A DNA stretch of 64,000 nucleotides, from positions 310,001-374,000 of the forward strand of contig JAWWNJ010000022.1 in NCBI GenBank assembly GCA_037176885.1, given 5' to 3'. This DNA comes from Favolaschia claudopus. Its lineage: Eukaryota; Basidiomycota; Agaricomycetes; Agaricales; Mycenaceae. Below are positions 37,402 through 60,513 of this stretch, piece after piece (within the stretch, counting starts at the first letter, position 1; each line of letters starts with the position of its first letter). Position numbers and translations under genes: made by a program. The notes under the pieces are model-generated. The model worked only from the letters and a program-made list of their open reading frames with translations, made no database searches and had not been told where the DNA came from.

Positions 37402-38897
37402 CTACCAATTCGTCAAATCCGCCTCCGCCTCCCCGAACACACTGCTCTTCTTCACCTCGAACGCCGCCGTATCTGACTGCACTCCATTCACCTCTGAATT
37501 AGCTCCGACATATAACTCCGGCAACTCCCGCCTCAAAAACCCCAACACATGCCCATTAATCTGCTGAAACTCCAGCAAAAAACCATCGTGCCCATCGGGC
37601 GATTGAATTGTCACAAGCTCCGCGTGAGGGATGTGCGCCGCGAGCTCATACTGCTCGTTCGGTGTGAATAGACCGTCGCTGGCGACGCTGATGACGAGCG
37701 CACGCGGCGGCAGCGTCCCGAGAACCCGTGCTAGAGCGGTCCCGTCGTCGTCTTCCAGCTCAGAGACAGTGATACGCCCCCGAGCAACGTCATGCGTATC
37801 GAGCTTGCGCGTGATGTGGATGTAGCAGTTTGCGTCGAAGCGGGCGGTGAATTTCTGGCCTTGATAGCGCAGGTAGGACTGGGCTGAGAAGATTGGCGGC
37901 CTGGCCGTCGTCAACGACGAAGGCATTCTGTGGTGCCCGTCGTTGTGTGCTGCGATGGCGGTCTCAGCGGGCGATTGGGGTCGGGAGCCGGGCGGGGTGG
38001 GTGTTCCCGGAACGACTGGCGCGGTATTCAGCTGAGCGCGGCGGCCAAAACGGCTCTCGAATGAGTCGCGGGAGCGATATGTGAGCAAGGCGCTCATGCG
38101 GGCGGCGGAAAGCCCGGAGGCAGGTTGGGTGATGTAGAAGCCGTCGCCGTATGCCGGATCGCTGTAGATGCTTTGGCGTTGGGCTTCGCCCCATGATATG
38201 CACCATCTACAAATTCGTTCTAGCATGTCACGGTCGAATGAGGGGAGAAATGGATGACGGACGCAGAATGACGAGCAGAGGTGGCGATCGGGACGACGTG
38301 TCGGATGTATCCATCGGGAGTACACAGCGGCCATTCGAGGACGGCCATCCCACCCATGGAGCCTCCGATCACGACTGCGACGGAGTTGACACCGAGGTGG
38401 TCGAGGACTCGTTTGTGTATCCTCGATGAATAAATTAGTGAATGCCTGAGATTTTGAATTCCAATACCGATACAAACCATACATCGTCGCGGATGGTCGT
38501 CGCTGGAAATTCAGGCCCATAGAGCTTACCTGTCGCAGGGTTTTTCGTGATGGGCGACGCAGAGCCGTACGGTGAGCCCAAGACGTTCGCGCAGAAGATA
38601 AAAAATCGTTGGGGGTCGAATGCTTTTCCCGGACCCATCAGTGGACCCCACCTAGATAGATATATACTCATTAGTTCAAGATACGACCTACGCATCCTCC
38701 CATCCTTCTCACCAGTCCTCAACATCGGCGCTTCCTGTGAACGCATGACAGATGATCATGACATTGTCTTTCTTGCTGTTTAGCGTTCCCCAAGTTTTGT
38801 AGGCAACGGGGACTTGGTGAAGCTGGACACCAGACTCCAGGGTGAACGAAGGAACAACGAATATTGACTGATCTAGATGTATGAGTGATTCGGTCAT
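37402..38897 (-). CDS. MET2: Homoserine O-acetyltransferase
   Basis: Four exons (38897-38713, 38651-38478, 38421-38263, 38206-37402) give 440 aa. It transfers acetyl from acetyl-CoA to homoserine, the first committed step of methionine synthesis. The alpha/beta-hydrolase nucleophile Ser141 sits in VIGGSMGGMAVLEWPL. Other family blocks are VAYKTWGTLN, CHAFTGSADVEDWWGPLMG, FFIFCANVLGSPYGSASP, DPAYGDGFY, and the catalytic Asp and His in VASDGLFTP and SPDGHDGFLLE. An insert of about 45 residues, Pro- and Ala-rich (PGTPTPPGSRPQSPAETAIA), lies before the FSAQSYLRYQGQKF block, as in other fungal enzymes. The exon 2-3 junction uses donor GTTTGT and yields Trp where relatives often have Arg, so that junction is slightly uncertain. 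Confidence 0.95.
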
Positions 38898-41755: not shown

Positions 41756-42855
41756 CTCTGGCTTGTCGGTTCAGACTTTGGCTACAGCGCTCGTATAAAG
41801 AGCCAATTTATATTCGAATATAATGCTCACAGATCTCTGAAAGAAAGACAACCTCGACAAGTGCTTCATCCTGGCATGAAGGGAGAAAGAAAGAGGTGAT
41901 GCGTCGGGATTGGTCGGTGATGCGGGTGACCGAACGTGACAGTGCATCAGATTACCTTGCTTGCCAAGGTTTATTCAGCGTTCCCGAAATTCCTTATGCT
42001 TCTTCACAGCCACTACATAGCCACCGCCAAAGCAGCTGCGGCTGAGCTGCCGACCTTGTGCCGGTCGCTCAACAGCCGAATCGAGACGGCAACCAATCGG
42101 CAAGTCTTCGGCATGTTCTCAACCTGGACCCGAGGCTCAACGAATCAAGCCATCACTGGACGGCACATCGTTCATTTGTTCCAGACACAGCAAGCCCTCA
42201 GTTCAGTAGGGCTGGTAGTACGACATAGAATTCGAACATGAAATCGGCTCTGAAGAAACAGCCTCTCGGTTCGGCATTTCACTTTTCAGAACTTGAGGGA
42301 GATGTGTTTACCCGTGCTGCATAGCGTGAGTTCGGTGGAAGAGATTCATCATTTCTAAACAGCGGGAGGGAGCAGAGACGTGGTTTTGGTGTAGTAGGTG
42401 CGTGTCGGAATATTCATTTTAATCAGGAGAAATAGTGGAGGAAAATAATTCCATTCGAGGGTTCCATAAGAGAAATTGTCAACGAGCTAGACTATTGACA
42501 TTCAAACTCAGAATCAAAGATCTTGATATTGTGGGAGGAGGAACACTCCGAGCAATTGCGTCAAATAACATGAATTCTACTCCATTGATCTGAATTCGAA
42601 GTAGCGGTGGGTAGAACTTGGAGACGAACGATAGCTTGAGTCGGAGCCTGGAATCCAGACTCCGGTGCCGCGGAAGATCACAAGAATCCGCTCACACTTA
42701 AGTTTTGTTTTTCCACAAGCAAGGTTCCAGCTGGCGCAGCCAGAGCTTTCGAGTGATATCATGATGTGACAAGTCGCGAAACTCTCACCAATTGGTTGCC
42801 AGTTGACCACCATCGTCTCAGCATTCTTTTCGCGTTTATTGACCAGAGAAGTACC
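41756..42855. other. Intergenic, no gene seen
   Basis: Lies between the esterase promoter and the left end of the candidate transposon. No coding or RNA feature could be supported. Confidence 0.45.
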
Positions 42856-42955
42856 GGCACCACAGTATGGCGTGTTTATATATAAAGACCTCTCATTAGA
42901 GGTCAAACTTTTATGTATAAACGCCTCTCATTAGAGGTCCAGTTTATTCATGTGA
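42856..42955 (+). repeat. Left terminal inverted repeat with two hairpins
   Basis: Contains ACCTCTCATTAGAGGT at 42888-42903 and CCTCTCATTAGAGGT near 42924-42938, each a 5-6 bp stem around CATT, separated by AAACTTTTATGTATAAACG. The order GTTTATATATAAAGA, hairpin, spacer, hairpin, CCAGTTTATTCATGTGAT mirrors the right end. Confidence 0.85.
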
Positions 42956-43224
42956 TAATGCCACTCACCTCCCCTGTTCTGCGTGATGAACGACGAGCAA
43001 GCCTTCGAGTATGTTGTGGTAGACGATGAGGAGCAATGTTACGTTATGTCCATTTTGGGAAGGCAATCAGCAAGGCCGTTAGTCGTCGTGGGCGACGATG
43101 AGGTCGAAATGAGGCGAAAACAAGGGAGAAAATGCACAAAAAAATACATAATTCGGTGGCTCGCATGATACATTGTAATGAAGTAATAGGGAGGCATTAT
43201 TGAATCAAAAACAATGAATCCGAG

Positions 43225-46200
43225 TCAAGCTAGCGACTCTTCCACGAGGGATGCGACGAGTTGTCCGTATCTCGGGACCTCAGGTACAGGGCCATCCTCA
43301 TCCTCATACTCATCCTCTGAAGTAAGATCATCTATCCCCGCCTCTTCTGCGATATCTTTGACATTCTCCCGCCCCATTTCAATGAACCGAGGCACATCCC
43401 GCCAATTCGCCTCAAAGCGAGCTCGTAGGTCGATCTGAATGCGGGACTGACGCCGCGCATAGGCGAGGAATCCCTCAGCCACAGCAGGGCCGTCGGCTGA
43501 CGAGAAATTGCGTTGTGCGAGCAGTGAAATCCACCATTCCCCCTTCCACCTGAGGAACTCCAGCACACGACGCATCTCCTCCTCAAGTAAATCGACTTCC
43601 TCAGTCCACCGCCACGCCCTTGCCCGCGTCTTAGCCCACTCGATCCGTAACGCCTCCGTCATACCACCCTGCGATTGCTCATCCTCTGACAACTGCGAAA
43701 GCCAAATCCAGGAGGCTGGACGTGCTGCAGCCTCCTGTTCTCGTCTCACCCCTGGATCCTCGTCAACTGCCGACCCTGTCTTCCGACGTTTCTTGGACTT
43801 GTGCAGTGGATCGCTGAAAGTGGCGCGAGGGCGGGGGCGAACATCGTCGGGGGTGAGAACGCGAAGCGTTCGCGTCCATTCGGTCTCCTTAAGAATTCGA
43901 CCGAGGAGCACAATGCTCTGGTACGCGACTCGGTACTGCGCAGATGTCCGGCGAATTTGCTCGTCGAGGCTCTCGATCGTCGTCTTTGCACGAGTATTAG
44001 CTGCCACTCCACGCCGATGCAGATCCTTGAACTGATATTTTGCGGTGCGGACGAGGAGAAGCCGGCGCAACTCCTCCAGTGCGGCGTGCGCTTGGCCAAC
44101 GCGCAGCTCAAACTCGCAGCGAGCATGACTTGGCTTCACTGAAATCTGCGGCTGGGCAGCGAGCATCGACGGCAGCCAGAGCTTGATGGTGGGAACAGGA
44201 AGTGCGGGAGTCGACTGCGGCCGATCCGCCTCGGTGCGAGCAACATCGTCCGCTTCTCGAAGCGACGCGACGGTGGGAGTGAAGGATTCACGTATCTTCA
44301 GAAACTGGGTGATCTTCCTCCCCAGCTTATTGGACCGTTCAAGAAGCCCGGTCTTCTGGCCGTCGGTGGCGTGCGTTTTGAGAAGGGTTGCATCGAAAGC
44401 GAGCTGACGCTGTTGCTCCTCAAGATTCATCCCCATCACGATCATCTCATGAGCATGAAGATCCCCTCGAACATCGTCCGCATCCTGATCCTCCGCCGCC
44501 GCCGCCGCCAGGCGCCCGCGAATCGCCTGCATTCCTTCGTGCTTCTCAGTAAGCTTGAATGGGTTGGGATTCGCAGCGTCAAGCTCCCATGCTTCCATTG
44601 CTGCCCGCCACTTATCCACCTCATCCGCAGGAAGCCCCCGCTCCGCCTCCCACAACTCCAAACGATGCGACGTCATATTGGGGACGGCTTTCTGAATCTT
44701 CTCAAGCAGCGACTTGCCGAGCCCAATGGTCTTCTTGTGATTGACATCGTTGAATTGGTCGTCGAGCGCGTCGCGACGGGCACCCGGTCCCATTTCCTTG
44801 GTGCTGGGAGCGAGGCTGTTGATATTGGCCCATCCGCGCTCTGGTGCCTCTCCGTCGGTCTGACCAACGAAGGGGGTGAGATTGAAAGAGAAGAGGATAT
44901 TGCAGTCCTCGATGTGGGCGGGGAGGTGGAATTTAGGGATGAGCCAGACGTAGTAGCGCTTCAGGCCGCGCTGGCGAAGCTCAGGCTTGTATTGAAGGAG
45001 GCGAAGCCATATATTTTTGTGCCATTGACATACAATGTCGTAGGAAATGAATAGCTGGACAATATCGTCGTAGTTTTGGAGGCTCTGCCACAGCATGAAG
45101 TCCATATTGATATACCTACGATTCGTTAGTCGGATCAAAATCTCTCTTAAAGTTTCGACACATACTTTTCCCCCTTCTGAAGATCTCCCACTCCCTTCGG
45201 CCGCTTCATATTGTGGCGCGCGCAGTCGACGGTACCTATCCCCGAGGCCGCCATCCCGTATGATTCCCTGTTCGGCTCGTTGACAGCATCATGCGCGACA
45301 CAGGTACTTTTCTGTGCAAATTAGGTCAGTAAATGAAGAGTTGTTAATGTCAGAATGTCACCTCCTGCTCAAGACCCCAGTGCGCCTCCAAATGCTGCAT
45401 GTATTCTTCTACTCGTGCAAAAAAAGCAATACCGTCGCCGAGAGACGGATCTTTGGCTTCGGATGATACATCGTTTCGCCGCATTTGGAAGTTCGCATCG
45501 AGGGCGAGATACAGCGCATAGATAAAGTGCTTCTCTCGCGGAACGTTGCGCCAAGATCCATCCCGGGGCAAATTCTTCCCCGGCTGCGGGCACGCTGGGC
45601 ACAGCAGCGCACACTCCCCCGCCTGCGTACCAGCGATTCCACCCGCAGCATGCCCGCGGCCAGCGCGCTTAAGCATCTGCAGATTGCGCCACTGCCGCGT
45701 CATGCGCCGAAACTCGTGATAACGACTCTGCGAGGGAATCGTGAGTTCTTGACGATAAATGAATAGGCTGCAGTAAAACTCACCCGAGGCTGGAATACGC
45801 CACTGTTATTTGTCTGACGGGCGAGTTTGTTGTAGAAGTGGAGGGCTGAACATTTTGCTTCGAGGGTGACGAGGTGGTAATCACGCAAAACTCTAAAGGT
45901 GGCGGCAGTAGCGGGATTTGTCGTCGTTGCAGGGTATAGTCGGGCGCGCAGGAGCTGTACGTCGTGATCTTCGGCCAAGGAGCAGCTGCAAAAGTCTACT
46001 TTGACTTCGTGGATACCGTTGGAGTCGACAACGCAGAAATCGTTGCGAGGGGACTTGGGATGTATGCGTTCTTCGCCTCTCTGCAATGCCGCCGCCGCCT
46101 CGTCCGCCTCCGAGGCTTTCTTTGCCAGCGTGCCTGGACATACCCCATTCCTCCCATGACCCAGCTGTATTCTCAATCCCAGAGACTTCAATGTCACCGA

Positions 46201-46911
46201 CTCAAAGAACTCGTCATCGTTCCACATCTAGTATTTATCCGTCAATGATCATTCAAATCTAGAAGAAAATATCATTACCTCAATGCGATGAAACGGATTC
46301 TCTTTGTGTGTGAAGACGATGCATTCTTTGCACGACAAAGCGTCCGTGAAACAGTCCTTGCAACGAAAGACCGCCTCGACGGCCGCTCTATCACAATTCA
46401 CGCATTTTGTTTGGTCTCGATAGTCGCCGCGGCCCTCAAGACGTAGTAGCTCGTCGAGAAAGCGTGCACGTCGATTCACCCATTGCGCCATGGGATTATC
46501 CTACAAGATATCAGTACAGGACCTATACGAAGAACACTGAACATCTACCGACTCGCGCTCGTTCCGCCGGGGAAGATCAAGAGGATGTCCCTCATCAAAT
46601 GCGAATGAATCTTCGCCAGAGAATGGGAATGCAGAGTGGGGTATCGCATCCAAATTTTCAGCGACCTCGGGAGTTGGGAATTCGTAGTCGTCGGGAATGA
46701 GAAGGTCGCGTTCGGCAGGTCGTCGTTTGGTAGGAGAAGCAGGGACAGTGAGCCGGGATGTCGCTATCACCGTCCGACCCTGCGCATCAGTACGGATAGC
46801 ACGATGGAAGATCCCCTCTTCCTGACTGCGTGCAATGGATGGCTCTTCTTCATCCTCGCTGTCGGAAGCGACTGTAAATTGCAAGCTGCCGATTTTTTTG
46901 CGTTTCGACAT
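43225..46911 (-). CDS. KDZ-family transposase with N-terminal CxC cysteine cluster
   Basis: Six exons (46911-46549, 46500-46279, 46227-45784, 45727-45362, 45311-45166, 45115-43225) give 1,143 aa without a frame break. A Lys-rich start (MSKRKKIGSLQF) and acidic linker lead to a Cys cluster at about 154-185 (KCVNCDRAAVEAVFRCKDC, then CKECI), the CxC2-type domain. GIGTVDCARHNMKRPKGVGDL (about 489-509), YINMDFMLWQSL, ISYDIVCQWHKN, PKFHLPAHIEDCN and GQTDGEAPERGWANINSL followed by TKEMGPGARRDALDDQF are the family's conserved RNase H-fold blocks. The C-terminal 450 residues are helical and end in an acidic tail. It would cut and join the element's ends in the nucleus. Complete reading frame suggests recent activity. 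Confidence 0.93.
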
Positions 46912-47062
46912 TTCTTTCGTTGACCAAGAGATCGAGTTGAGGAAGAGGTGAGTGGTGTGTATCAGGCGGGAAGTGGATGATGGGGAGAGTGGGGAGAGAA
47001 AGCGATGATTTGCATGAAAACTATACAAAACTGATATGCGGCATACGAACCGAGAGATGATA

Positions 47063-47692
47063 TCAGTTGTTGCTGCTGGCGCCCCACCCCCTCTCCGAAT
47101 CATCACCCCACGCCGGTGCACCCCACCCAGCCAAATTCGAAGTGGGACTACCCCAGGCAGGTCCATCATCATCGTCCCAGCCCACCCAGGACGTATTGCC
47201 CGAAGTCCATGGCCATCCTGTTCCAATGCTGCCCCACCCAGAACCCCCTGTCCCCCCTGTGGATGACACGCTCCCTGCGGAGAGAGCAGCCCAAGCTGAC
47301 GCATCATTGGCAGCGTCGGCTATGGACCTCTAGTATTATATAAAATGATAGGAATGGAAGAGTGCACACGTACCTTGTGAGACCCCGGCAGGCAGACTCC
47401 GACGCAGTCGCGGGGGACCAGGAGCACGGCGACCAAGGCGGTGGTAGCTACGCCGCTCCTCCGCCGGCGGAGTGGAGGCGGGAGAGTCGACGCGACAAGT
47501 ACGAAGAGATCCTAGGTTATATAAGCACATTGTGATGAATAGAAAATTGGCATCGACAAGAGCCACAGAGTACTTACTGCGATGAGGGGGCATGGACGCA
47601 AGAGCAGAAAGGGCAGCGATAGCCCTAAGCCAAGAAATTGCGGATAAACCTTCCGCCGCATGGTGTATCATGCGGTGGGAGCTATGTGACAT
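47063..47692 (-). CDS. Small Trp/Gly-repeat (GW/WG) protein, transposon cargo
   Basis: Three exons (47692-47578, 47511-47374, 47274-47063) give 154 aa. The first half is basic, Arg-rich (EERRSYHRLGRRAPGPPRLR). The second half is Gly/Ser-rich with eight or more Trp, nearly all next to Gly (SGWGSIGTGWPWTSG, SWVGWDDDDGPAWG, LAGWGAPAWGDDSERGWG). GW/WG repeats of this type can bind Argonaute proteins ('AGO hooks') in plants and fungi. The link to RNA silencing is inference from composition. The last intron acceptor was picked to keep the frame; a donor-site alternative two residues upstream exists. It lies just upstream of the transposase gene on the same strand. Confidence 0.55.
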
Positions 47693-48051
47693 ATCGATCC
47701 GAGCCAGCGGTGTCGGTGTCAAGCGGAGAAGAGAGCCGAAACCAAGTAGAAGGTGTTAATGAGCCGCAAGGCAGCGCATTGAACAAGAAGTAACCAAGTA
47801 GTGTCCTCGACGACTTGCATCGAGGAGGAGTGAGAGAACGAAGGTAACACAGTCACACTATGTGACAATCAGATCAATTTCCTTTTTAGAAAGTACTCCC
47901 TGTGCGCAAACTATTTGGCTCGCATTACTTATTGTCTGGCTTCCTGGAAAACCTGAGTTTGTAGATAACTTTCTATTGATCTTGAGCACACCCTGAGCAA
48001 ATATTGAGGTAAAGAAACAGCGTGAACGAACACTTATAGCAAAATACATTC
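47693..48051. other. Gap between cargo genes, no gene seen
   Basis: Likely promoter of the GW-rich gene and 3' end of the F-box-like gene. No other feature is recognised. Confidence 0.4.
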
Positions 48052-49208
48052 TTAGTATCGTAAATTTTTGATATAACGGGCGGCGGCGGGCTCGAGCGGT
48101 AAACATATGAACTCGGAAGCATGCGACATATCAGTCCAGTAGAGTATAGAGTCTGTTGTACCTATGACCAGAACATCAAGATCAAGTTGCGAGTTGGCGA
48201 CGAATTTGTGACGGATCAAACGCGCCTGCGAGACGCTGTATGTGCACGCAATTACCAGGTGGCGTATTGTAGACATCTGGTCAACGATGGCGACCATGGA
48301 ATCAATGGAATCGTCGAAATCATCCTGTGAATATATATTTTTAGGACGGCGGAAGAACAACGATTAATGTAGAAATCGAAAACTTACAGCTGCGACCGAC
48401 GCTGAGCCCCACGATTTATCTTGGTAGATAACCAGTCGTCGAATGTCAGGTAGAAGAACATTCAAGTCCTGGTACCTCAACAGCCGCTGCGACCAACTGA
48501 GAAATTTGGAGCTCCAAAGAGAGAACAGGAGCAAGCGACGATGCCAAAAACTTGAGAGAAATGATCGGCTGCCGCACTTGGTCGCCGTCGGAATACTGAA
48601 ACTCTACGTGTTTCACAGGGCGGGAAGGGACGATGACAATGAGATCTTCGGGCGGCGCAGTGATGTCGGTGAGATGGGGGAGAAATGCAGGCAGGTTGAT
48701 GGCGACTAGATTGAGGTCGCCAAAGAACACCGACGTAATGTGCGGCTGCAAGAGCAAGAAATCGATTGCATCATCGCAAATCGTGGGCCAGTATAATAGG
48801 TCCTCCAGTTGCCCCGGGATTTTCTTCAGAAGGTGAGCAAATCCCAGCCGAATGTAGTGGATATGGAGGGCGCGTAGGTTGACCAGCGAGCTGAAAGCTG
48901 CCTGCAAGTCGTTGTTGTCGCCTTCGTATGCGATCCCCGCAAGAGTGAGCTTCTTCACCTAGATGAAAGTCTCAATCAAAGTCAAACCAATACAGCAGAG
49001 GACGTACTAAAGCTCCGAGCTCCTGCCTTTTTTGCAGCGTAGAGAAAAACTTGTGAGTCTGATCTCCCTCGACTTGCACAACTCGATACAATTCGGCACG
49101 GGCGATGTGAGCGAAACGACGCGAGACTAGAATTGCCGCTGCTTGGATGTTGGGATTCACAAGCCGTAGGATTTCGCAGAGACAAGAGTTGGGGAGTTGG
49201 GGTAGCAT
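48052..49208 (-). pseudogene. F-box/LRR-like gene with one frameshift, transposon cargo
   Basis: Exon 1 (49208-49008) starts MLPQLPNSCLCEILRLVNP, an F-box-like opening with VSRRFAHIARAELYRVVQV. Exon 2 (from 48958) carries Leu-rich segments (LRALHIHYIRLGFAHLL, LEDLLYWPTICDDAID, LTDITAPPEDLIVIV). Near 48475 homology-like sequence (YQDLNVLLPDIRRLVIYQD) continues in another frame with one extra base, to a donor at 48387. The last exon (48324-48052) encodes DDFDDSIDSMVAIVDQM through IKNLRY. If the extra base is real the protein is truncated after about 235 residues. A sequencing error or an unusual splice is the alternative. Confidence 0.65.
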
Positions 49209-49602
49209 GGAATGAAGGAAATCACGAACACCATTATCAGTGCGCACAGAAAGTGAGTGGGAAAGCAAGAAAGCGGGTGGGAAAGTCTATGACGGCACGG
49301 CAAATCATAATTGATTGATCAACTACAACTCGGACTCAATCCAAATGAAACGCCCAGTTCACCTCATCGAAAAGCTCCGGGTCTGCCTCGCCTCGAGACA
49401 CCGCATCAAGCGCCATCCGGCAGCAAACCTCATATGAAACAACAAGATCTATCGTGTTTCTTCGCTCTCTCAACTGCCGGATCATCCTTGACCATCTACG
49501 AATCTCCTTCTGGGCCTTGCGACTGGCGGAATACGAAAGAGAGGCAACGCGCCTGTAAATTGAAACTGGTCACCAAAATTCTAAGCGGATGAAATGAGAA
49601 GC
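49209..49602. other. Gap inside the element, no gene seen
   Basis: No feature supported. It separates the F-box-like gene from the minus-strand KDZ-like remnant. Confidence 0.4.
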
Positions 49603-50360
49603 TTACCTGTCGCGCGAACGACTACGAATCATCCCTTTCAACATACGGATGTGCAAATCAATGGTGTGTTGCGCTTGAGTGCCGCGTGCCAGCTGGGCGC
49701 GAGCAAGGCTTCGGAGTTCCTCATGAGAAGATTCAAAATCATCCATGGGACCAAACTTACAGCATCTCAGTTGAGGGTTGTCGCTCGCCGGTTGCAAAAT
49801 TGGGCTCCATTCAGTTAATTCTGGAAGATTCTTGAGCAGCTGCTTTGCACGACGCGAATCTGTGAGTTTTAAATGTTTTTGGACGTCCCATTGTTCCTGT
49901 ATCCCCGATTGAAACTTACTTACGATATTCTTCCGTGCTTCGGGATCGTCTCGCCGCCACGCAGACAACGAGCTTCTGTTCTGCTGTGCTAATATCCCTC
50001 TGATCCGGTGGATGTTCAGCATCCGGACTTCTTTTTCCCCGACGCTTTGACGTTTGACATGTAAGAATCTATTCCAGGTTATTTCCAAATTATTTCGCTA
50101 ATTTTTTGTAATTTCCCCTCTTCAGCCGTTTGTCTTCCTTCCTGGCTGCCAACAATTCGCGGCGCCGTTCTGCCCTATTCTTCGTGTTCTTCCTTGACAA
50201 GTAATCCCCGACCTCCAAGGCATCCCTCCGCTCACCCGGCCCCATCCCCATCTCCTTAGTAAGTGGCGTGATTGATGCCCCAGCCGCCCATGCGGCTTCA
50301 ATTCGTTCAGCGTTCATAGTGGTAACCGGGTAAGGGTAAGTGTATCTATGCCCCAACGGA
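49603..50360 (-). pseudogene. Second KDZ-transposase-like remnant
   Basis: A segment reading from about 50317 (NAERIEAAWAAGASITPLTKEMG, then MGPGERRDALE) parallels the transposase block PERGWANINSLAPSTKEMGPGARRDALDD of the intact gene. It is followed by a basic helix (KNRAERRRELLAARKED) and then, after a stop, by about 160 codons (49603-50088) of Arg-rich helical sequence. The rest of the transposase core is missing upstream. It may be a fossil of an older KDZ element, or a captured C-terminal domain. Confidence 0.4.
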
Positions 50361-50546
50361 GATTCGTGAATTTATTTCCATCAGACCAGAGGAAAAGAAC
50401 CGACCTTTCTATTGCTTTGAAATTCCCCATGATCTACAGGGAGCCGGTTGTAGCGTTGGTGCGATGGGGATTACAGTTCCCTTTATACCTTACGCGTCCT
50501 CTTATCGTCCAGTCAAATTAGATCATTGTTGAATAGAATTTCCTCG

Positions 50547-51453
50547 CTAATTACCGACTATTCTGTACCCATCCGCATCCCCAATGAGCATTCCAGACTC
50601 CTCATAGCCAATTAACGCCAAAAGAAGCTGCTCCCTTGAACGGAACAAAGTGTATCAATCAATGACATGGAATGAAGAAAAAAACCGAAGCGAGTACATA
50701 CCCCTCTTGCACGTAAACGTACCCAGGCGGCGCGGGACCAATCTCCCGCTTCTCTAGCTGACGGGTTTCGGCTCCCACCTCCAAAATCTCGGCCGCCACT
50801 GGAATCATCGCGCCCTCGGCCCTCGCCCGATCTTGTTCTGCTAGTGCCCTCTCTTTCATCTCCCTTCCTTGCTTCTCTGAAAGGCTGGCCATCTCCTCTC
50901 CAAACAGCGCAGCAAGTCGGTCTCGAAACGAAGCCCCATGTGGAATATGTGGAAGCGCGTGTTGGAGGGGTTGTCCGAGATTGCCGGATGAATTTTTGCC
51001 GGGTGAAGTGTTGCCGCGTGAGTTAAGATCGACGGGTTGGGATCGTTGTCGGGCAAGACTGCGCTCGAGATTCTCGCGAGCGATGCTGATGAGGGTTGGC
51101 TTGGGCTTCAAGGGTCGAAGCCGCATTCCACCATAGAATTCTGCAAAATAGAGCAATGTTAGAGAAGAAGGAGAATAGATTGCAAACGACATACCCATGA
51201 CCTCTCGGCGCTTTTGTCTCGCTAGTGCAGGTCCTTGCAAAGGCGGCTCGACCGCCTCTCGTGCCAGACGTTCCCGGGTAAGTCGTTCTACCCTGAATGA
51301 GCATAATATGTAGAATGAGAACCAGCACATACCGGCCTTGGCCTGGCGGCGCTTTCGAGTCAGCCGTTGTGGACCTAATGTTGGGCAGATGCCGGCCAAG
51401 AGACGGTCGTGGACTATCGCACGCTGTGCTGGGTCGCTCATGTCGTATGCCAT
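50547..51453 (-). CDS. Hypothetical protein, 261 aa, transposon cargo
   Basis: Three exons (51453-51195, 51140-50702, 50634-50547) sum to 262 codons. The N-terminus MAYDMSDPAQRAIVHDRLLAG is followed by basic helices (RLTRKRRQAKA, VERLTRERLAREAVEPPLQG). A Gly/Ser/Asn-rich linker leads to a coiled-coil-like segment (SLSEKQGREMKERALAEQDR). The C-terminus ends LIGYEESGMLIGDADGYRIVGN. A short stretch at about residues 40-54 (GMCWFSFYILCSFR) looks intron-like, but its removal breaks the frame, so it is kept in the model. No family is recognised. The basic N-terminus would suit nucleic-acid binding, but that is speculation. Confidence 0.5.
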
Positions 51454-53605
51454 GGAAGAGGAGGACAAGAGAGAGAAGAAATCAGACCGATCAGATTTTG
51501 GAAAGCGGCCAAATGGGGGCAAGCTGTTACCCGAACACTGTTTATCGACAGCAAAACGACGAGCACAATAAAGTAAGGGGGAGAGAGAGAGAGATTTCGA
51601 GGTCGTAAGTAGAAAATGTCGCACGTAGAACTGAGTGAAAGCAGGCCAGAGAGTATAACAGTCCAGAAGGCAGATTGGATCACCGGAGCAAGATACGTAG
51701 ATAATAGCCATTTCGCAGGGAGAATAGAGGCTGTAGCATGAGCCAGAGAAGATCCAAAGCCTCGTCTTGCTGTGCGGTTGTCACTCAAAGTCCGATGGTA
51801 AACTCAGAGCAAGATGGATGTGGACGAAAGCAAGAGAAGTTACGTGGGAATGCTGGGCAATCGCTGGTTGTCAGTTCGGCCGAAGGCCCGAAGTTGAACA
51901 GGAACACGACTCTTTTAGTTTTCTCCCGCAACGACGACTCCTCCGGCTTCAATTTTACCTCCGTTGGACTCCCAGACGTACTCCAATAGGTTCTATGTCA
52001 AAATTCTACTCATTAACTTACTTGGACACAAAGGCTCTCCAGCACATGTTCAATCGCAAAAAATCAACCCGCTTCGGCGCTTCCCTACTTGCTACTTGCC
52101 CCATACAAAGTTCCGCTGAGCACAGGAGTCATTCAACAAGCTCGATATTGTTGCGTGGCTTCTATGAGAACATCCTCCAAAAATCCTTGCTTACCAGCGA
52201 TCAAGGGAAGGAACACATATTGTTAACAATACTCTCGCAACAAGTATGCAACTCTGTTGGTGCATTGACTCACCTCCCCTCATTGTGGATTGGACGTTTT
52301 GCAATCCAAACGTCTCATAAGATCGCCAGAATTCGAAATGTTTGACCTGTATTGTCCCCGTGAAGACAATTTGCGACGAGTTGCAAATTTTGGTTCACCA
52401 CTCAAAACCTCATTATTCCAAACTCATCGCGGTTCTAGATGCACTTGGGATTACTGTCATCCAGAAACCAGAAGGAACTGACTATGCAAGACATATATCT
52501 CACTCACAGATCGAAACTTGGATGGACGGAAAGATTTATGCCTCGAGGAGTCAAGCTCTTGGGACGAAAACTTCGGTGTTCAGCTGGGATAGGTCAAATT
52601 TCAAGATTTGGTCCAAGACCTTGGATATTGAGGTATGCTACACCGAGTGGCGATTAGAAATTCTGTATGTGGTTACCGCGGGGATACTGTGTGTCTATGA
52701 ACCAGGAGATAGTTACCGAGACACGACCAAATAAAAACATTGGTTTTAATTCTCACCTGTCTGTATTTCGGGTGACTTATTACTAGACCCAAACGTGTAT
52801 CGTCTGTATTGGAGCGTATAGGAGCGTTAGTTGATGGTACTAGAGGCAGTATTCGTCTGGATTTCGTACTGTTTACACCGGAGGTTTCACACTGTATTCT
52901 GTGGCTCACTGATGTTGTAATGATGCCAATATCGAGATTCGGGAAGATAATACTCACTGTACCTTAGGCCGGATAATCCGATGGAGTAGAATCCGCATAT
53001 TACTAGGTTAACGAGGTCGCGTTCGGAAGGTGATTAGTCCGTATTAGGAAATTGACGCGTGTTGTCACAAGTGTGACATTGCCGCCGTTCTAGCTTCGCT
53101 TCCACCTTCATCGACCTGCTTCAGATATCGAGCCGCTATAGCCACTGGACTACTTGGATGCGTGTATTACATGCAACTCGCACATCAAACTCGCGGAATA
53201 TGGGTCGGAGCAGCGTATAAGTGGGAAATACACAGTTCCTGTGAGCAAACTGTCACTGTACTTACGCTAACACAAGTTTGACTGAGAGGTACGAGCGGAA
53301 TTCATGTTGCTAAACAAAGGTGAGTACCTTCGTATCTTGAAATAGTGTTCGGCTCGGAAAGTCAAGGTACTCTGGTCATACTGGAACCAAGTAATCGAAT
53401 TGGTTTGCAATAATTTTGGTCGCAGACCCCTCAAATGCAAGTACCAGCCGTCAAAACCTTAATGAGAGGTCGTTCATCGAAAGATTGTGTACGCCGCTCG
53501 TTCCAAAATCTACATTCTTCCAGTTTTTGCTGATTTTCGGTTGAATTTGGAGTCTGGCATAGCCACACCCACGACCTTCTTTCGCACCACGACATCAAGC
53601 TAACT
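51454..53605. other. Long gap inside the element, no supported gene
   Basis: Plus-strand frames at 51767-52345 and 52342-52734 contain protein-like stretches but no start, splice logic or family resemblance. They may be relics. The segment 52,740-53,600 shows nothing coding. A tRNA A-box-like sequence is noted around 53,080-53,175 on the minus strand but not called. Confidence 0.4.
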
Positions 53606-54625
53606 ATGACACACAGCAAAATTGGAAAAGGAAACGGAAGAGTCAAGGACCCAAGGTTCGACCGCTCCGTGTACCGTGGATTGATTCACTCAATTTGAGA
53701 TACTCACAGTGCTGCAGCAGAGTTGAGGCGGATTGCCTCAGCCAACTATTATCAGAAGAAGTATGTGTGTATTGTACTTAGCAAGTGCTTGATACTCAGA
53801 CCAGTTTCAGTGCAGACACAATTCGCGAGAAAAGGAGGATTCAGATGGCGGAGAAACGGTGCGAAAGGGAAGTGATGTGCGTGAACCAATTGACACGCTG
53901 TGAAGGGCCCGAATTAAAGCAAACCGTCGCAAATCCGACAAGCCTAAACTACTGAGAACAGCCACGTCGCGGGCTGTTTCTGCCCCTCCAAGGATCATCA
54001 CTTTCACGGAACGTACCGGACGCTTGGCGTCGCTGTCGCCTTCGCAACAGCCAATGAACCGCGTGGAGAACAAGGATGTTCCGAACAGGTGAGCTCTGAC
54101 CGCATCTCGGGAGCGATAGTGAAAATCAGCAGTCGATTTTGCGCCCACCAGAGATTCTTCTGCTGATGCTACTTCTGAATATAGGTCAGTGAGTCCAACG
54201 CAGGACAGGATGCGGAGCAGGGAGGAAGAGAACGAGCGGGGTGAACATAAAGAAGAAATCGGAATGCGGTAAGAAGTTGATAACCGACGGAATTGTTCTT
54301 CCGCTGACTCTCGCACAGCACAATCTCGGAGGTTGCGGAGGAATCCCCCGGAAGCGCTTCATCGGACGACCAAGATTGGCAACTGAGTCCCATTACGCAA
54401 GGTCAGGAACAACATGAGGAACAAATCGCCTCCTCCTCGTCACATTTGTACATATTCATCTCTTTACAATTTTCACCTCTGAAGAGAAGCTGTCGCAGAA
54501 TACGGCGACGATACTGGACTCCACCAATTGAGGACGATCCGTTACCTGGGCCCCAACCGCGGCTCCCGAGTTTCATTTCTTATCTGGAGGATCACATGTG
54601 TGGACAGCACGACGGACGGACTTAA
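53606..54625 (+). CDS. Hypothetical protein with basic helical region, transposon cargo
   Basis: Six exons (53606-53655, 53710-53760, 53805-53871, 53943-54088, 54185-54268, 54319-54625) give 234 aa. The N-terminus MTHSKIGKGNGRVKDPR leads into a basic helix: AAAELRRIASANYYQKN, then TIREKRRIQMAEKRCERE. After this come Ser/Pro-rich and acidic stretches (TISEVAEESPGSASSDDQD) and a C-terminal Arg-rich patch (LKRSCRRIRRRYW). The REKRRIQMAEKR-type helix recalls DNA-binding basic regions of transposon-associated fungal proteins, but no named family can be assigned. All introns are GT-AG; donors and acceptors were chosen where only one combination keeps the frame open. Confidence 0.55.
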
Positions 54626-54763
54626 ATAATGTTGGATTTTTGTTGTATTTTACTGAATTGATTTACTTTCATTCCAAATTTCACGGTTTCAACCAACAGA
54701 CGACGAACAGACGACGATCCATTGCAACAACTCTATATACAAACACAAAACGACGCAAAAGAA

Positions 54764-55421
54764 CTAAACCTCAACCCATTTCTCCACCCCCTCGCCAGCC
54801 GGAAGATTGTAGTGGTCCCGATAATAGGAGAGAGCTTCGACGCGGGAGGTCTTCTTCGCCATGTGCTGGAACGGCACCCCGTTGCACTGCTCATTGGCAT
54901 CCTTGCTGAAAACATATTGTCAATTATGATAGAAATGCAAGAGAGATGTACAGAACTCACGCCGACTGGTACATTCCGGGCTCTCGCCCGCGGATAACCA
55001 CATACCAGGTCTCACCAGAACCTGGGGGGTGAGTTCTCTCAAGATCGGCGGGAGTCTGGGCAATCTGGCGCTTGAAAACGGGGTCGGTGTCGACCTCGGC
55101 GGCGGCGGCAGCTTGAGCAAGGGCAGCCGCCCGCGCACCGGCGACTTCTATGCCGACGACGAGAGGCAATCTGGCTGTTAAGAACGGTGAGGGAAATTTT
55201 TTGATTAGAGAAAAATATAAACGCATACCTTGCACCTCGACGGAAAGACGCATGACCTCCGTGGTGGCTGTAGAGAGCCGAGACACCAAAGCGACGAGCT
55301 CCTGGAGCTCGCTGAGGGGGGCGGCGGAGGCTGCAGAGGAAGGAGGCTGGGTGGTGGTCATGGTGGGAGGAAGATAGTGGTGAATGTGGGTATGGAGGTC
55401 GATTTGAAGGTTGTGGGGCAT
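54764..55421 (-). CDS. RNase H1 N-terminal (viroplasmin-like) domain protein, transposon cargo
   Basis: Three exons (55421-55229, 55174-54961, 54905-54764) give 182 aa. The first 65 residues are a Ser/Ala-rich and helical region; residues 66-115 are Ala-rich (ARAAALAQAAAAAEVDTD). The C-terminal block WYVVIRGREPGMYQSA, then CNGVPFQHMAKKTSRVEALSYYRDHY, has the pattern of the small RNase H1 N-terminal domain (also seen in plant-pararetrovirus viroplasmins), which binds RNA-DNA hybrids or double-stranded RNA. There is no RNase H catalytic domain. Many mushroom genomes hold such stand-alone modules. The gene is divergent from the large gene at 55837. Confidence 0.7.
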
Positions 55422-55836
55422 TTGAGAACGAGTGTGGAGGTTATTATGTGAAGTCTCAGATCTTAAGGGTGACCGGGTGACTTGTGCTTTAGCGAGAGAC
55501 GCATGAGACGTATCACAAAAAAGAACATTCCATGATGAGACTTACCTCAATACCCATTGAGGTACTTGACTTAGCGACAATCGGTCCGATGTGCAGATCT
55601 AGGGAAGGAACAACCTGGAACAACCAAAGATTACCTCCTTTGGAAATCCAGATCAAAGTGCGCCGCAATTCTGTTTCAAAAAATTAGTCGGATAGATGCT
55701 GGTAAACGGAGATCGAAATCGGCACGGTCTCGTCTCTCTTTGCTTTCATACCCTGACTTGCAGCACTTAGTCGTTGCGACATTTTACTTCGCTTTTTGGC
55801 TTACCTTGGCTCTCTGGCACATTATTCTCTCCCAGA

Positions 55837-58791
55837 ATGCCAAAAGGCAGAGTATCAAAGCTTCCCCAAGACAAAGCGGCCTACTTGGAGTCGTATTGGC
55901 TTGAATTTGTACAGCTACAACCTCACCTGGGAAATTTCTGGCCTAAGGTCTTCCGCGGCTGGTTGCAAAATTGGCCGGTGGAGGTTGCGCTAGGCTTACC
56001 GCTGTCCGATTCGACCGGGGCAGCAATAGAGTCGTCTGAAAGGTCGGCAGATGAGGAATTAGCCATAGGAAAGGCAATACGGATTCAGGAGGGGGTATTT
56101 ACCTTCATTCTAAATTTATTGAGCATCAACTTACCGTTGTCTCGGCCAGGTAGTTCGCAATTGGTACAATAACCGCTCGCAGAAAGAAAAGAAAGCATTA
56201 AATGATAACAACGCCCCGCCTTCCAGTACCAGCGGCCTGGAAGATGTTGTAGCTGTGCTCGGGAAAAGCTCGCGTGCTCCCCGCCGTTTGCAGCGTCGCG
56301 AGATCTGGCAGAAGCGCAATAAGGGGGTGATCGACGCTGCATTTGAAGCCGAGGGCTTGAAATCTCTCATGCCGCCAGGAGATGATGATGAAACACCCGC
56401 TGAGCGAAAGCAGAGAGTATCGAGAGGACGAAGAGATCAGCAAACTTTGCGACGAAAAGTCCTTGCGCGGCTGTTTTTGGAGGCGACAGATGAGGAGATG
56501 GCGACGGTGGAGGAGTTATATCAAAATCAGGTGAAGCCTTCGAGGGGTGGTGAGGTGTCAAGCACTCCCGAAGCATTCCAGCGGTGAGTATTCAGATTAT
56601 CGCCAAGTTTATTCAGATTTTGATGGATTGTCGTAGAGGAATCGACCAAGTTGGGCCTTTATTGAAGCACGTGCACGCCTACGTCCAGAAGAAGACAGGA
56701 TTGGTTGGAACGACGATGCTGGTCGGCCCCATTCCCAACCAAGGAGGGAAGATCGGGACACAAACGTATGCGTTACTGTGACGGTGACGATACGATGATT
56801 ACTTAACCTCTTTTCTCAGCTACTGCCATGGTGTCACTTCCGCTGGACACACATTCGACCAGGCACATGCTGGATGGGAAGACCAGGTCGTGAAACCCCT
56901 TCATCAGTTTGGGAAGAAGGTTTTCGGTGCGTCATTCACGTATACAAAGTGTTAAGACACTGATATATATTCACTCTATTTTAGACCACCAAGCTCGACG
57001 TGAACGCGCTCTTTGTCCACAGGGAAGGTGCGAGCTCGACAACACACCAAATACCAGCCCTGCTGGCTCTACTCCCGCCCAAATCACTCCCTCTGAGGCG
57101 CCGACATCCACCACCACCGAAACCCAGCCTGAAACTCCCCTGCCAGCTCCACCACCTATCTCGGCATCTTCAGACGCACTGCCTGGCCAGAATACGGTGC
57201 CTACCCCTCCTCCCGATGTCTCTGCACCTCCTCATGACGGCTCCCCGACTCGCCCAAACCTCTTCCTGCCCGGGGAAGGCGATGATTTCGGGCACGAAAA
57301 TTATCCGCCACTGGATCTGGATCTTAACTACTTCCCACTCCCCTTCGAAATTCTATCCAACCCTGATGTCTTTTCCGCATCCCCTGCATCTGCGCCACAA
57401 ACTCCGAACCTCGCTGTGCAGCCACCGATCAGAGGCGATACACCGTCTTTCGATCTCTCTTCGCCGGTAACAACGGCAACCCTGCAAACTCACGCCCCTA
57501 CGCAAGCTACCTCATTTGCAGCTACGCAAAATTGGGTTTTCCCCAGCAACCTCCCTCCCCAATCCACCCCGTCCTCTACTCCTCGACTGACACCATGTAC
57601 CCCGACCTCGTTTGCTCGGCATTCCCCCATTGCACCCACATCTGCACCGCCCCGTCCTCAGCCTCGTCCCCTTGCATCTCTCGCTCCCAGCTCCGTCTCC
57701 GCGCCGTCTACACCAACGCGAGCCGGCACAGCTCTGTTTCAGCGTCAGCCGCCAACGGTTCGAGGCGGAGGAGCAACAACTCCTTCTCCGCTTCGCCATG
57801 TGCTCACAGCTAGTCTCGCTTCGTTCCCAGCTCCATCGGCTCCATCCACCTCATCTTTCCCTGCGGCCCCCATCGTCGCCCCCAGCGATTCGACCACTTC
57901 CCCTGCCGCAACGCCCTCAGCTCCCACGACAGACTCTGTTGTCATAACTCCCCCCGTCTCCTCCTCTGCGTCTTCGACGCCTCCAGCGTTGCCTGTCGTT
58001 CCCATGACAACACCCGCACGAGTGGTGTCAGCGCTGACAGCGGACGACTTTCCCGAGTCAAGACCACTTTCGAATGCCCCTCCAGCACCAAAAACAGCCA
58101 ACCCGGGAGCGGCGCGAGGTGGCGGACGGGGCGGACGCGCAAGAGGACGTGGAGGTCGAGGCGGAGGAGGTAGAGGTAGAGGTGGAGGTCGAGGTCGAGG
58201 CGGAGGCGGAGGTCGAGGCGGAGGCGGAGGTCGAGGCGGAGGTGGAGGTCGAGGCGGAGGCGGAGGTGGAGGCGGAGGTGGAGGTGAAGTGGACACCGGG
58301 TACCTTCTGGGGCACGATGCAGAGGGCGGCAACATGTGGCAGCTCGGCACTGGGCAACGCAATGCGAATCGCGAAGCCGCTGCCGCTGCCGCTGCAGCTC
58401 AGAAAGTGCGCGACCGAGCTGCGCGCGACCGTGACCACGGCATTTTCTTCTTTCCTCCTCCTCCACCCGGCACCGCCGCACTTCCCGCTGAACCCGCAGC
58501 CTTGGGCGCGCGCGCTCCACCACCTGAGCCGCGAGTCCTCGGTCTTCGCGGTCCTTCAGAGCGCACTCTCAAAAAAGGTTACGTACCACCAAAGAAGCGT
58601 ACAATGGAAGAGATTCGGCAGGAAGCTAGCAAGAGGAAGGAGGATAAACAGGCGGAGAAGCTCGCAGCGGCAGCGAAACGCAAAGCGGAGGCTGAAAATG
58701 TGCGTCCTGGACCGTCGAAAAAAAAGTAAGTCCGTCGGTTTTCTCAGAAAATATTCTATTTATCTCATCGGTGTGTAGGCGCACTAAGTAA
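55837..58791 (+). CDS. 893-aa protein: conserved N-terminal block, Pro-rich middle, Gly/Arg repeat
   Basis: Six exons (55837-56094, 56150-56583, 56637-56765, 56820-56926, 56985-58725, 58779-58791) give 894 codons. The N-terminal 310 residues look folded (YWLEFVQLQPHLGNFWPKVF, EGVVRNWYNNRSQKEK, VGTTMLVGPIPNQGGKIG, THTYCHG-like segments, HAGWEDQVVKPLHQF). From 310 to about 690 it is Pro/Ser/Thr-rich. Then comes a pure Gly/Arg repeat (GRGGGG units, encoded at 58129-58290). The end is Ala- and Lys-rich. RGG boxes typically bind RNA and drive condensate formation. No named family is recognised. If the last intron were retained, translation would stop at 58729 after KKK, so the end is nearly the same either way. 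It is the rightmost cargo gene. Confidence 0.75.
58129..58290 (+). repeat. GGxGGA-type microsatellite coding for a Gly/Arg repeat
   Basis: About 160 bp of GGAGGTCGAGGCGGA-type units with AGA/CGA arginine codons at intervals, translating to GRGGRGG and GGGRGGG runs. It lies inside the 893-aa gene, and the complement gives Pro-rich shadow frames. Confidence 0.9.
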
Positions 58792-59762
58792 TTACTTGTA
58801 TCACTTTCTGATGTTGCATCGCTGCTCAACCAGCCACTGCTTAGAGTAGCCGAGTTATCTTTGTCTTCACTCAACTGAAATAACGACGATTTTCTTTACT
58901 CTAAATTAATCTGTGGCATGTTCTACCTTGTACTCTATAAGAATGAATAGTGCTTCAATGAATACATCATGTGAACCTCAATATTTGGCTGTAAATCTCC
59001 AAGTGTGACTTCCACAATCTTTTTGTCGGTCCAAGCAGGTGGTAAGCGCCTTAGGCGCTTAGCACTTAGAGCTTTTCGACTTGAGTGTGGCTGAAAGCCG
59101 AATGACCGAATAACGCCGAATATTCGAGGTGCGACTGATGTTGACTTTTTGAGGCCAAACTCTTGTAGGTAGTGTCGCATTGAGCTATAGAAAGATCAAT
59201 GTACAAGTAAAGAATCCTATTACCTTTTTCCTGAACATTCAAATCCGGCCTACACAATATTTTTCTCAAAATGATCTCTATACAAACAGGGACAAATAGG
59301 ATCCCAATTAACCTAGCGCCCATTTGAAAACGATCCCTCTCCTACTCTCCTACTCAGTTATACTACACATCTCTCAGCCAAAAACTGCAATGCTATTCGG
59401 GCAGGAAATTTTACCGGGTTTCGGCAGGTGCCGGTAATCAGATTGGGTGAACGAAACAGGAACAAACAAAAGCGCCCCACCATTTTCCCCCCAATACCCC
59501 GACGTCGTGCGGACCACCCAAGGCTTCCTAGCCTATACTGTGCACTATATTACCAAGGTAAGGTCTTAAGCTTGCTCCCTGGGCACTGAATTGGCGGTAC
59601 AGGGGCGGCAGAGCCCGTATTTTCGCACCCAATTTGGGTGGTGATGCGCTACACCGCCACCAACCGCCACCCGCCATCCCGCAAACGCGCCAGAGCGGTC
59701 GATTGCGCCTGACGACGCCGCCGCATGGAGAGCCCTGCCGTATATTGACAGGTATGTCACTG
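58792..59762. other. Right subterminal region of the element, no gene seen
   Basis: Lies between the last cargo gene and the right terminal repeat. No coding or RNA feature was supported. Confidence 0.45.
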
Positions 59763-59868
59763 TGATATATAAATAGATTGGACCTCTAATGAGAGGCTTT
59801 TATATATAAGAGTTGTACCTCTCATTACAGGTCCTTTATATATAATATCGCCGTATAGGGCTGGTACC
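59763..59868 (-). repeat. Right terminal inverted repeat with two hairpins
   Basis: On the plus strand: GATATATAAATAGATTGG, hairpin ACCTCTAATGAGAGG (59782-59796), TTTTATATATAAGAG, a second hairpin in which one base is changed (ACCTCTCATTACAGGT), then TTTATATATAATATCGCCG. Its reverse complement aligns along its whole length with 42856-42955. Confidence 0.85.
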
Positions 59869-60513
59869 GGAATGGTTCCCCAAAGGTTCTGCGGAGCATT
59901 ACTCGCTGTTCCCAACCTCTTCCGCATGATACTGGAGCTTTGGACTTGCTTTGGTCCTTTGGATCGTCACTGTCTCGGAGGCGATGTCGCAAATTCATAA
60001 ATCATTCCGCTATCAGTGTGCCCAATCAACCCCACAACCCGAGACGACACTGGAAATGCCGACAGGTTTCACAGACTGATTCATTATCATGCGAACCCAT
60101 ACGAGGTCGCAGGACTTCGGATGCTCGATGCCAAACTCCGTGTCGTTATCACCAGCTGTGGTGAGTTGCGTGCACTCGCCAGTCATCGTTACTTGCAATT
60201 CTCCGGTCTTGAGACTCAGGAACGTCCCTGACATGAACGTCCTGGTCCTGACTTCCTTTCGATTTTAGACGCATATCAGTGAGTATTCCCGAAACAAGTC
60301 TAATTTGGAGCTCGGTTTATATGCGGGCAGTGTCTCACAACCGAACACGAGGTGTCGAAGTGCTACTCCCCCGCTCCATTCCCTCCTCTCGTTCTACCAC
60401 TTCGCTTGTAGCCTATTTGCCTTATTCTATGTTGTAATTGGTTCCTCAAGCTCTGCCCGCGAAGCTTTATACATTCTTCGTGAGCTCGTTCGTCAAGCGC
60501 ATCCGCTGTGGAA
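59869..60513. other. Intergenic, no supported gene
   Basis: Sequence outside the transposon. Frames near 59940-60230 have no family resemblance or splice logic. Part could be an unrecognised first exon of the downstream membrane protein. Confidence 0.4.

Follow-up and report, generated by a model that had tools for sequence, protein, structure and literature searches.

Gene content and borders of the element

The stretch of DNA analysed here, hereafter the window, comprises 64,000 nucleotides of the genome of Favolaschia claudopus, a mushroom of the Mycenaceae (contig JAWWNJ010000022.1, C22:310001-374000) and contains a KDZ-group DNA element, called W, of 17,006 bp. Comparison of the flanks across the genomic copies fetched places W at 42858-59863, with GTACCGG on both sides as a 7-bp target-site duplication (TSD). 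An initial annotation had set the borders at 42856-59868, which is near, but that span includes bits of both duplications. W carries a KDZ transposase, an F-box gene and three further genes, g3, g4 and g5, as well as a KDZ-like fragment, between imperfect terminal inverted repeats (TIRs) (Table 1). About seven cargo genes had been counted at first, while the actual set comes to about five genes plus the KDZ-like fragment, with the transposase counted in. Gene coordinates and exon edges are those of a home-made predictor, checked against relatives and annotated proteins.

The full-length transposase reported initially is borne out, and its frame has no internal stop across the 1,143 amino acids (aa) in the predicted splicing, the start MSKRKK having been picked by comparison with protein P0002. 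The window exons match the Pfam families PF18758 (E 1.1e-34) and PF18803 (CxC2, E 5.1e-38), while a PDB sequence search with the KDZ profile gave no match. Among the matches listed (120 of 746 KDZ matches), the closest relatives of this transposase are F. claudopus proteins located on C26, C167 and C11.

The TIRs proposed at the outset are also present, with 68-nt arms that are 82% complementary, an identity of 84% over 77 bp, and 10 of the outermost 15 bp alike by eye, and repeats of this type recur at the termini of further elements within this genome. The hairpin-bearing character ascribed to the ends corresponds to palindromic motifs in both of them. Generally, each end reads CA...GGCG, followed by an A/T box and then an 18-bp palindrome-like site, and a second unit of A/T box and palindrome lies 35 bp inward, except at the right ends of the short element on C5 and of C19. 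The first palindrome of the left end has 6-9 of 9 pairs in eight elements (C11b and C68 are excluded from the palindrome counts as near-identical to C11a) and at least 7 pairs in seven of them, compared with 2.1% of control stretches; symmetry is lower, at 5-7 of 9 pairs, in the first sites of the right end and in the second sites. In addition, both arms of the left first site are altered jointly between C26 (GACCTTTAATGAAAGGTC) and C19 and C49 (GACCTCTAATGAGAGGTC).

Table 1. Coordinates, in the window, of the element's features.
Feature	Position	Strand	Remarks
Left 7-bp TSD, GTACCGG	42851..42857	.	empty paralogs hold a single copy, ATACCGG
Left TIR	42858..42953	+	starts CACCACAGTATGGCG, then two units of A/T box and palindrome
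Palindrome GACCTCTCATTAGAGGTC	42887..42904	.	8/9 pairs; second, less symmetric copy at 42922-42939, 6/9 pairs
KDZ transposase, 1,143 aa	43225..46911	-	CxC2 and KDZ domains; six exons in predicted splicing: 46549-46911, 46279-46500, 45784-46227, 45362-45727, 45166-45311, 43225-45115
F-box gene	48055..49208	-	PF00646, 21.9 bits against a cut-off of 20.5; 348 aa predicted in C167
KDZ-like fragment	50093..50371	-	resembles transposase region around the ERGWAN..EMGPG block
g3, protein without known family	50702..51453	-	MAYDMSDPAQRA...; three exons predicted
Fast-evolving region without coding periodicity	51500..54370	.	present in the four relatives aligned
g4, 173-aa protein	54764..55421	-	sub-threshold RNase H1 N-terminal-like match
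g5, 891 aa	55837..58729	+	five exons
Right TIR	59768..59863	-	reverse complement CAGCCCTATACGGCG...; two palindrome-like units, 59816-59833 and 59781-59798
Right 7-bp TSD, GTACCGG	59864..59870	.	flank comparison and empty paralogs

Copies and pre-insertion sites in the genome

The ends of W were searched in its own genome (264.6 Mb, 460 contigs), where a 245-bp left-end query gave at least 16 matches including W itself and a 261-bp right-end query gave at least 34. Among the 15 non-self matches of the left-end query, the start falls exactly at 42858 in ten, 1-2 bases outside in three, and inside in two, which are right ends. Both ends were read in 14 elements (W, C167, C68, C11b, C11a, C5 short, C26, C19, C121, C49, C5 long, C119, C1 and C149:444046-461637), and in all 14 the 7-bp flanks are identical and the termini are CA..TG (the termini of ten were written out); the duplication of C49, read from its sequence, is GTGTTTC. 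The paired ends first described in the window therefore do occur at other loci, with a duplicated target in every two-ended element. Eleven of the 14 are cargo-sized, with lengths of 16.7-17.7 kb except for two of 27.7 and 53.6 kb that contain nested insertions (coordinates and lengths of the long C5, C119, C1 and C149 copies were derived by hand), and the other three are short derivatives. End matches on C29 (left end alone read), C206, C205, C40, C253, C139, C244, C109, C81, C8 and C12 stand outside this count.

Three of the cargo-sized copies, C11a (17,223 bp), C11b (17,219 bp) and C68 (17,210 bp), are 99.6-99.8% identical over their full length and occupy three sites with three different duplications; therefore, the whole block transposes. 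The related elements C26 (27,709 bp) and C167 (53,563 bp) have been enlarged by nested insertions of about 10.7 and 36 kb, which split g3 of C26 and g4 of C167. The short derivatives (C5 short, 5,000 bp; C19, 6,804 bp; C121, 4,259 bp) resemble the long elements over 83-103 bp at the left end; at the right end, C5 short and C19 have 59-61 bp of similarity, to which C5 short adds a further 143 bp at 74%, and C121 aligns with C49 over 240 bp at 75%. They share little else with the long elements, and the ends therefore seem to be the part that is recognised.

Nine joined flank pairs were searched in the same genome and the best 40 of 319 candidates were scored. For five of the nine insertions (W, C11a, C11b, C68 and C167), the joined flanks match elsewhere straight through the junction. 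Six candidate empty places were fetched and all six align through it, with 231/251 and 227/248 matching positions for W, 291/299 for C11a, 277/300 for C68, 279/309 for C167 and 291/300 for C11b. Each holds a single copy of the target, which is identical for C167, one base off for W, C11a and C68, and two off for C11b; among the best 40 of 319 candidates, C26, C5 short, C19 and C121 had no pre-insertion site. The empty places are paralogous repeats targeted by the element rather than alleles. The initial annotation had looked to other strains for sequence lacking exactly this segment next to a duplicated target, and what was found is paralogous sites for five of nine insertions, including that in the window, but no strain alleles. 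The 14 duplications, the identity of whole blocks and the empty sites uphold the early view of a large multi-gene KDZ transposon with these ends, and its borders and movement are, on these comparisons, firmly supported.

Several further observations concern the distribution of the family. The target site of W (42761-42857, 59871-60018) is itself a repeat, with copies of about 91-92% identity on C12 and C4. At C11:160523-207378, two near-identical copies of 17.2 kb share one orientation and are separated by 12.4 kb, and C304 bears a second copy of the interval between them, perhaps from the other haplotype. C304 (12.4 kb) had itself been considered as an element; it was rejected as the interval between two elements, with their ends pointing outward, and was removed from the TSD count. 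The short elements C5:1760310-1765309 and C19:2008935-2015738 are non-autonomous siblings, 82% identical to each other over 1.1 kb. Equal-scoring left-end matches (81%) at C244:196390-196594, C109:842501-842705 and C81:26953-27157 may mark a further, recently amplified group. A decayed relative with a truncated transposase match lies at about 236104-253055 of C22, outside the window and about 100 kb before W.

Accessory genes and selection

Five elements (W, C11a, C26, C167 and C49) were read in their interior, and each of them has matches to the KDZ, F-box, g3, g4 and g5 genes. The F-box-like gene and the KDZ-like remnant were both recognised correctly at first, and the latter matches a set of 120 KDZ proteins at E 2.8e-5; three annotated models (P0140, P0141 and P0146) fuse it with g3. 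Two unknown proteins had been proposed beside them, of which one stands as g3, in which Pfam found nothing. A second one is not seen, windows across 51.5-54.4 kb showing no 3-base periodicity (chi2 of at most 4). This region is a fast-diverging one, with about 3 kb alignable in all four relatives compared, and some periodicity returns at 54378-54617 (chi2 19). An RNase H1-N-like match does exist in g4, but at 20.5 it remains just under the Pfam cut-off of 21, and it is weaker (14.8) in the C49 copy; a PDB sequence search with g4 gave a single match at E 0.22. The proposed GW-rich protein, which would lie at 46.9-47.3 kb upstream of the start of the KDZ gene, is unsupported, as the matching stretch has stops in C11a and C167 and C26 has no match; one 240-bp window of the stretch has 3-base periodicity (chi2 28). 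Searches of NCBIfam with five proteins and of a phage collection gave no matches.

The gene g5 encodes 891 aa in the model taken and 888-893 aa in four open variants. The Gly/Arg-repeat protein reported earlier corresponds to a real Gly/Arg stretch, but its open reading frame is the last exon of the five-exon g5 and not a separate gene. The predicted protein consists of a homeodomain-like N-terminus, a conserved core, a Pro/Ser-rich part, an Arg-Gly-Gly (RGG) stretch and a basic C-terminus. Its relatives comprise 19 proteins, six from F. claudopus and 13 from Mycena, and the W, N, R, K, E and K of the motif WxxNRxxKEK are invariant in all of them. A profile of these 19 proteins has the Oct-1 POU homeodomain as its best match in PDB (E 7e-4), and homeodomains account for 15 of the 16 matches with E <0.02.

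Signs of purifying selection were found across the gene set. The bootstrap interval of the ratio of nonsynonymous to synonymous divergence (dN/dS), with replicates of undefined dS dropped, lies below 1 in all 24 gene-by-pair comparisons, the highest upper bound being 0.78. Point values, which are rough, range from 0.07 to 0.38 (21 of 24 computable), including 0.19-0.24 for the F-box gene and 0.22 and 0.38 for the KDZ-like fragment (two computable of four). In addition, the third codon position has the most mismatches in 20 of 20 comparisons, a test biased toward this result, since among several open phases that with the most third-position mismatches was chosen. Purifying selection on all genes makes the so-called cargo look like the element's own machinery. 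Identities of the KDZ protein and of the g5 N-terminus are correlated among seven elements (r 0.89, 21 non-independent pairs), the two proteins being paired by same-sized contigs rather than by adjacency.

Divergence is uneven along the element. Between W and C167, identity is 74-85% in the transposase, 83-85% in the following 3 kb, which include the F-box gene, 63-71% at 50.9-53.9 kb, and 88-94% in the last 6 kb, and synonymous divergence is 1.09 for KDZ and 0.19 for g5. Judged by this pattern, element copies seem to have exchanged parts.

Affinities and interpretation of the element

Among known KDZ elements, Kyakuja has been reported to have 7-bp TSDs and CA..TG termini, and Zisupton 8-bp TSDs (Kojima 2025, PMC12730594). 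The Kyakuja TET+ transposons of Agaricomycetes share with the W family the KDZ transposase, the 7-bp TSDs, the 5'-CA..TG-3' termini and the occurrence in Agaricomycetes, whereas they carry a TET/JBP gene, which was not seen in the W family with its four other conserved genes (PMC12730594). In W, no TET/JBP dioxygenase was matched by Pfam in the 18 frames scanned of the 51 listed open frames of at least 100 aa, or in the proteins scanned for g3, g4, g5, the F-box gene and KDZ. Two Laccaria families of Kyakuja reportedly have no TIRs, which may not define the lineage, while the W family has imperfect inverted repeats (PMC12730594). By termini, TSD and domains, the W family resembles Kyakuja.

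The Cryptococcus elements KDZ1-KDZ3 are likewise multi-kb KDZ elements with TIRs, and their mobility has been shown by insertion into a reporter gene (PMC12810828). They differ in being 9.2-11 kb long with TIRs of 139-241 bp and a CxC1 cluster, compared with about 17 kb and CxC2 in the W family, and in TSDs of 8 bp (KDZ1) or 4-8 bp (KDZ2 and KDZ3) rather than 7 bp (PMC12810828). Zisupton of fish also belongs to the KDZ group, and an F-box domain has been noted inside one of its transposase isoforms, whereas the W family has a separate F-box gene and 7-bp instead of 8-bp TSDs (PMC12062965, PMC12730594). Both marks of the KDZ superfamily, a KDZ domain with a CxC zinc cluster and a TSD of 7-8 bp, are found in W, and the 8-bp TSD of Zisupton and Dileera was seen in none of the 14 elements. 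Among the literature matches listed, in a search whose coverage excluded most subscription journals, no published description of the W family was found. Starships are moved by tyrosine recombinase captains, and no such captain was found in the 18 frames scanned. They are also large gene-bearing fungal elements, in the available literature mostly far larger than the 17-kb W with its KDZ transposase.

W is very probably a complete Kyakuja-like DNA transposon of the KDZ group, about 17 kb long and probably autonomous or recently so, which moves as one block by its transposase, duplicates 7 bp, and carries a stable gene set long under selection. A number of points weigh against this view. Mobility is known here from comparison of sequences, and the functions given for the accessory genes are inferences. 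W lacks a near-identical sister, and its F-box frame is interrupted near 48.46 kb, where two overlapping matches lie in different frames; the frame has no such break in C11a, C26 and C167. One-ended copies, which the initial annotation had held to speak against a transposon with these ends, do occur in two cases (C149:24640.. and C22:..253055), with the right end present, the left not found in the piece fetched, and a short KDZ match; we read these as decayed copies and keep the interpretation. In 17 of the 24 comparisons dS is above 1 or undefined, and the dN/dS ratios are therefore rough. As for g5, a Pfam domain was found in none of the three proteins scanned, the second-ranked PDB match of its profile is an unrelated protein, and the AlphaFold model has a low mean predicted local distance difference test score (46.6). 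AlphaFold confidence is also low in the KDZ core, both structure models were set aside as too poor for use, and a fold search against PDB had no match at E <= 0.001. Finally, a TAAT/ATTA core occurs in only 20 of 32 palindrome positions, being present in 4/4 in W, C121 and C49, 1/4 in the recently active C11a group and 0/4 in C5 short.

How such an element might operate can be outlined from its genes. The transposase would cut the CA..TG termini by DDE (Asp-Asp-Glu) chemistry, the homeodomain-like g5 protein may bind the repeated end palindromes and help assemble the transposition complex, and g3 with the KDZ-like fragment might regulate the transposase. Moreover, the F-box protein could recruit the host SKP1-cullin-F-box (SCF) ubiquitin ligase, leading to removal of a host restriction or silencing factor, while g4 may handle nucleic acid. 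In the En/Spm system, TnpA is a separate factor that binds repeated subterminal motifs alongside the transposase TnpD, and TSDs are 3 bp. The proposed two-component logic of the W family is alike, g5 binding being a proposal, whereas the proteins are unrelated and the TSDs are 7 bp. The proposal that g5 binds at the end palindromes builds on TAAT being the classical homeodomain core; with the core at 20 of 32 positions only, the TAAT idea is therefore weak, and a palindrome-binding dimer appears the safer part of the proposal. It is a tentative and rather doubtful suggestion that a KDZ lineage evolved here into a multi-protein machine, with a homeodomain-like RGG protein recognising palindromes of both ends, a regulator partly related to the transposase, an F-box protein turning the host ubiquitin ligase on factors of silencing or repair, and a protein that binds nucleic acid, held together in one 17-kb mobile unit and reshuffled between copies by recombination.

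An unlikely alternative is that the KDZ transposon captured host genes as passengers, a cargo serving the host or nothing, given that fungi commonly carry F-box genes and that the domain type of g4 is not transposon-specific. This is opposed by the finding that all five genes are common to two subfamilies with 70-73% identity between their transposases across the C-terminal 600 residues. Moreover, the ten database homologs of g3 are all F. claudopus proteins, nine on contigs of the same size as end-bearing contigs of the KDZ family and the tenth on one (305,241 bp) with a KDZ relative. Likewise, two of the 13 Mycena relatives of g5, both from Mycena olivaceomarginata, are on contigs of the same size (489,775 and 117,156 bp) as KDZ-bearing contigs among the 120 of 746 KDZ matches listed. 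An island of passengers between unrelated ends was rejected, the genes being common to both subfamilies and present in five of five elements. An element of CACTA/EnSpm or another superfamily that has a KDZ gene nested in it is highly improbable; the left end does start with CAC, but the duplication is not 3 bp, the KDZ gene is the sole transposase among the frames scanned and has the same place in five of five elements, and the only long stretch without an assigned gene, 51.5-54.4 kb, lacks coding periodicity. Segmental duplication or repeat-mediated rearrangement that fell between inverted repeats by chance is hardly credible, for which the neighbouring C11 copies and the repeat of their interval on C304 could be cited, but the flanks differ from copy to copy, a separate 7-bp duplication accompanies each, and five precise pre-insertion sites exist.

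Read as a Kyakuja-like transposon, W is a large DNA transposon of a mushroom genome, now with exact ends and pre-insertion sites, in which a conserved set of genes travels as a block. The F-box and homeodomain-like genes it has retained provide a specific and testable example of accessory machinery in a eukaryotic DNA transposon, and from the short derivatives it can be seen which ends a mini-element would need. Outside the element, a 411-aa open frame at 37402-38637 on the minus strand has a weak alpha/beta-hydrolase match (E 1.5e-5, just below the Pfam cut-off).

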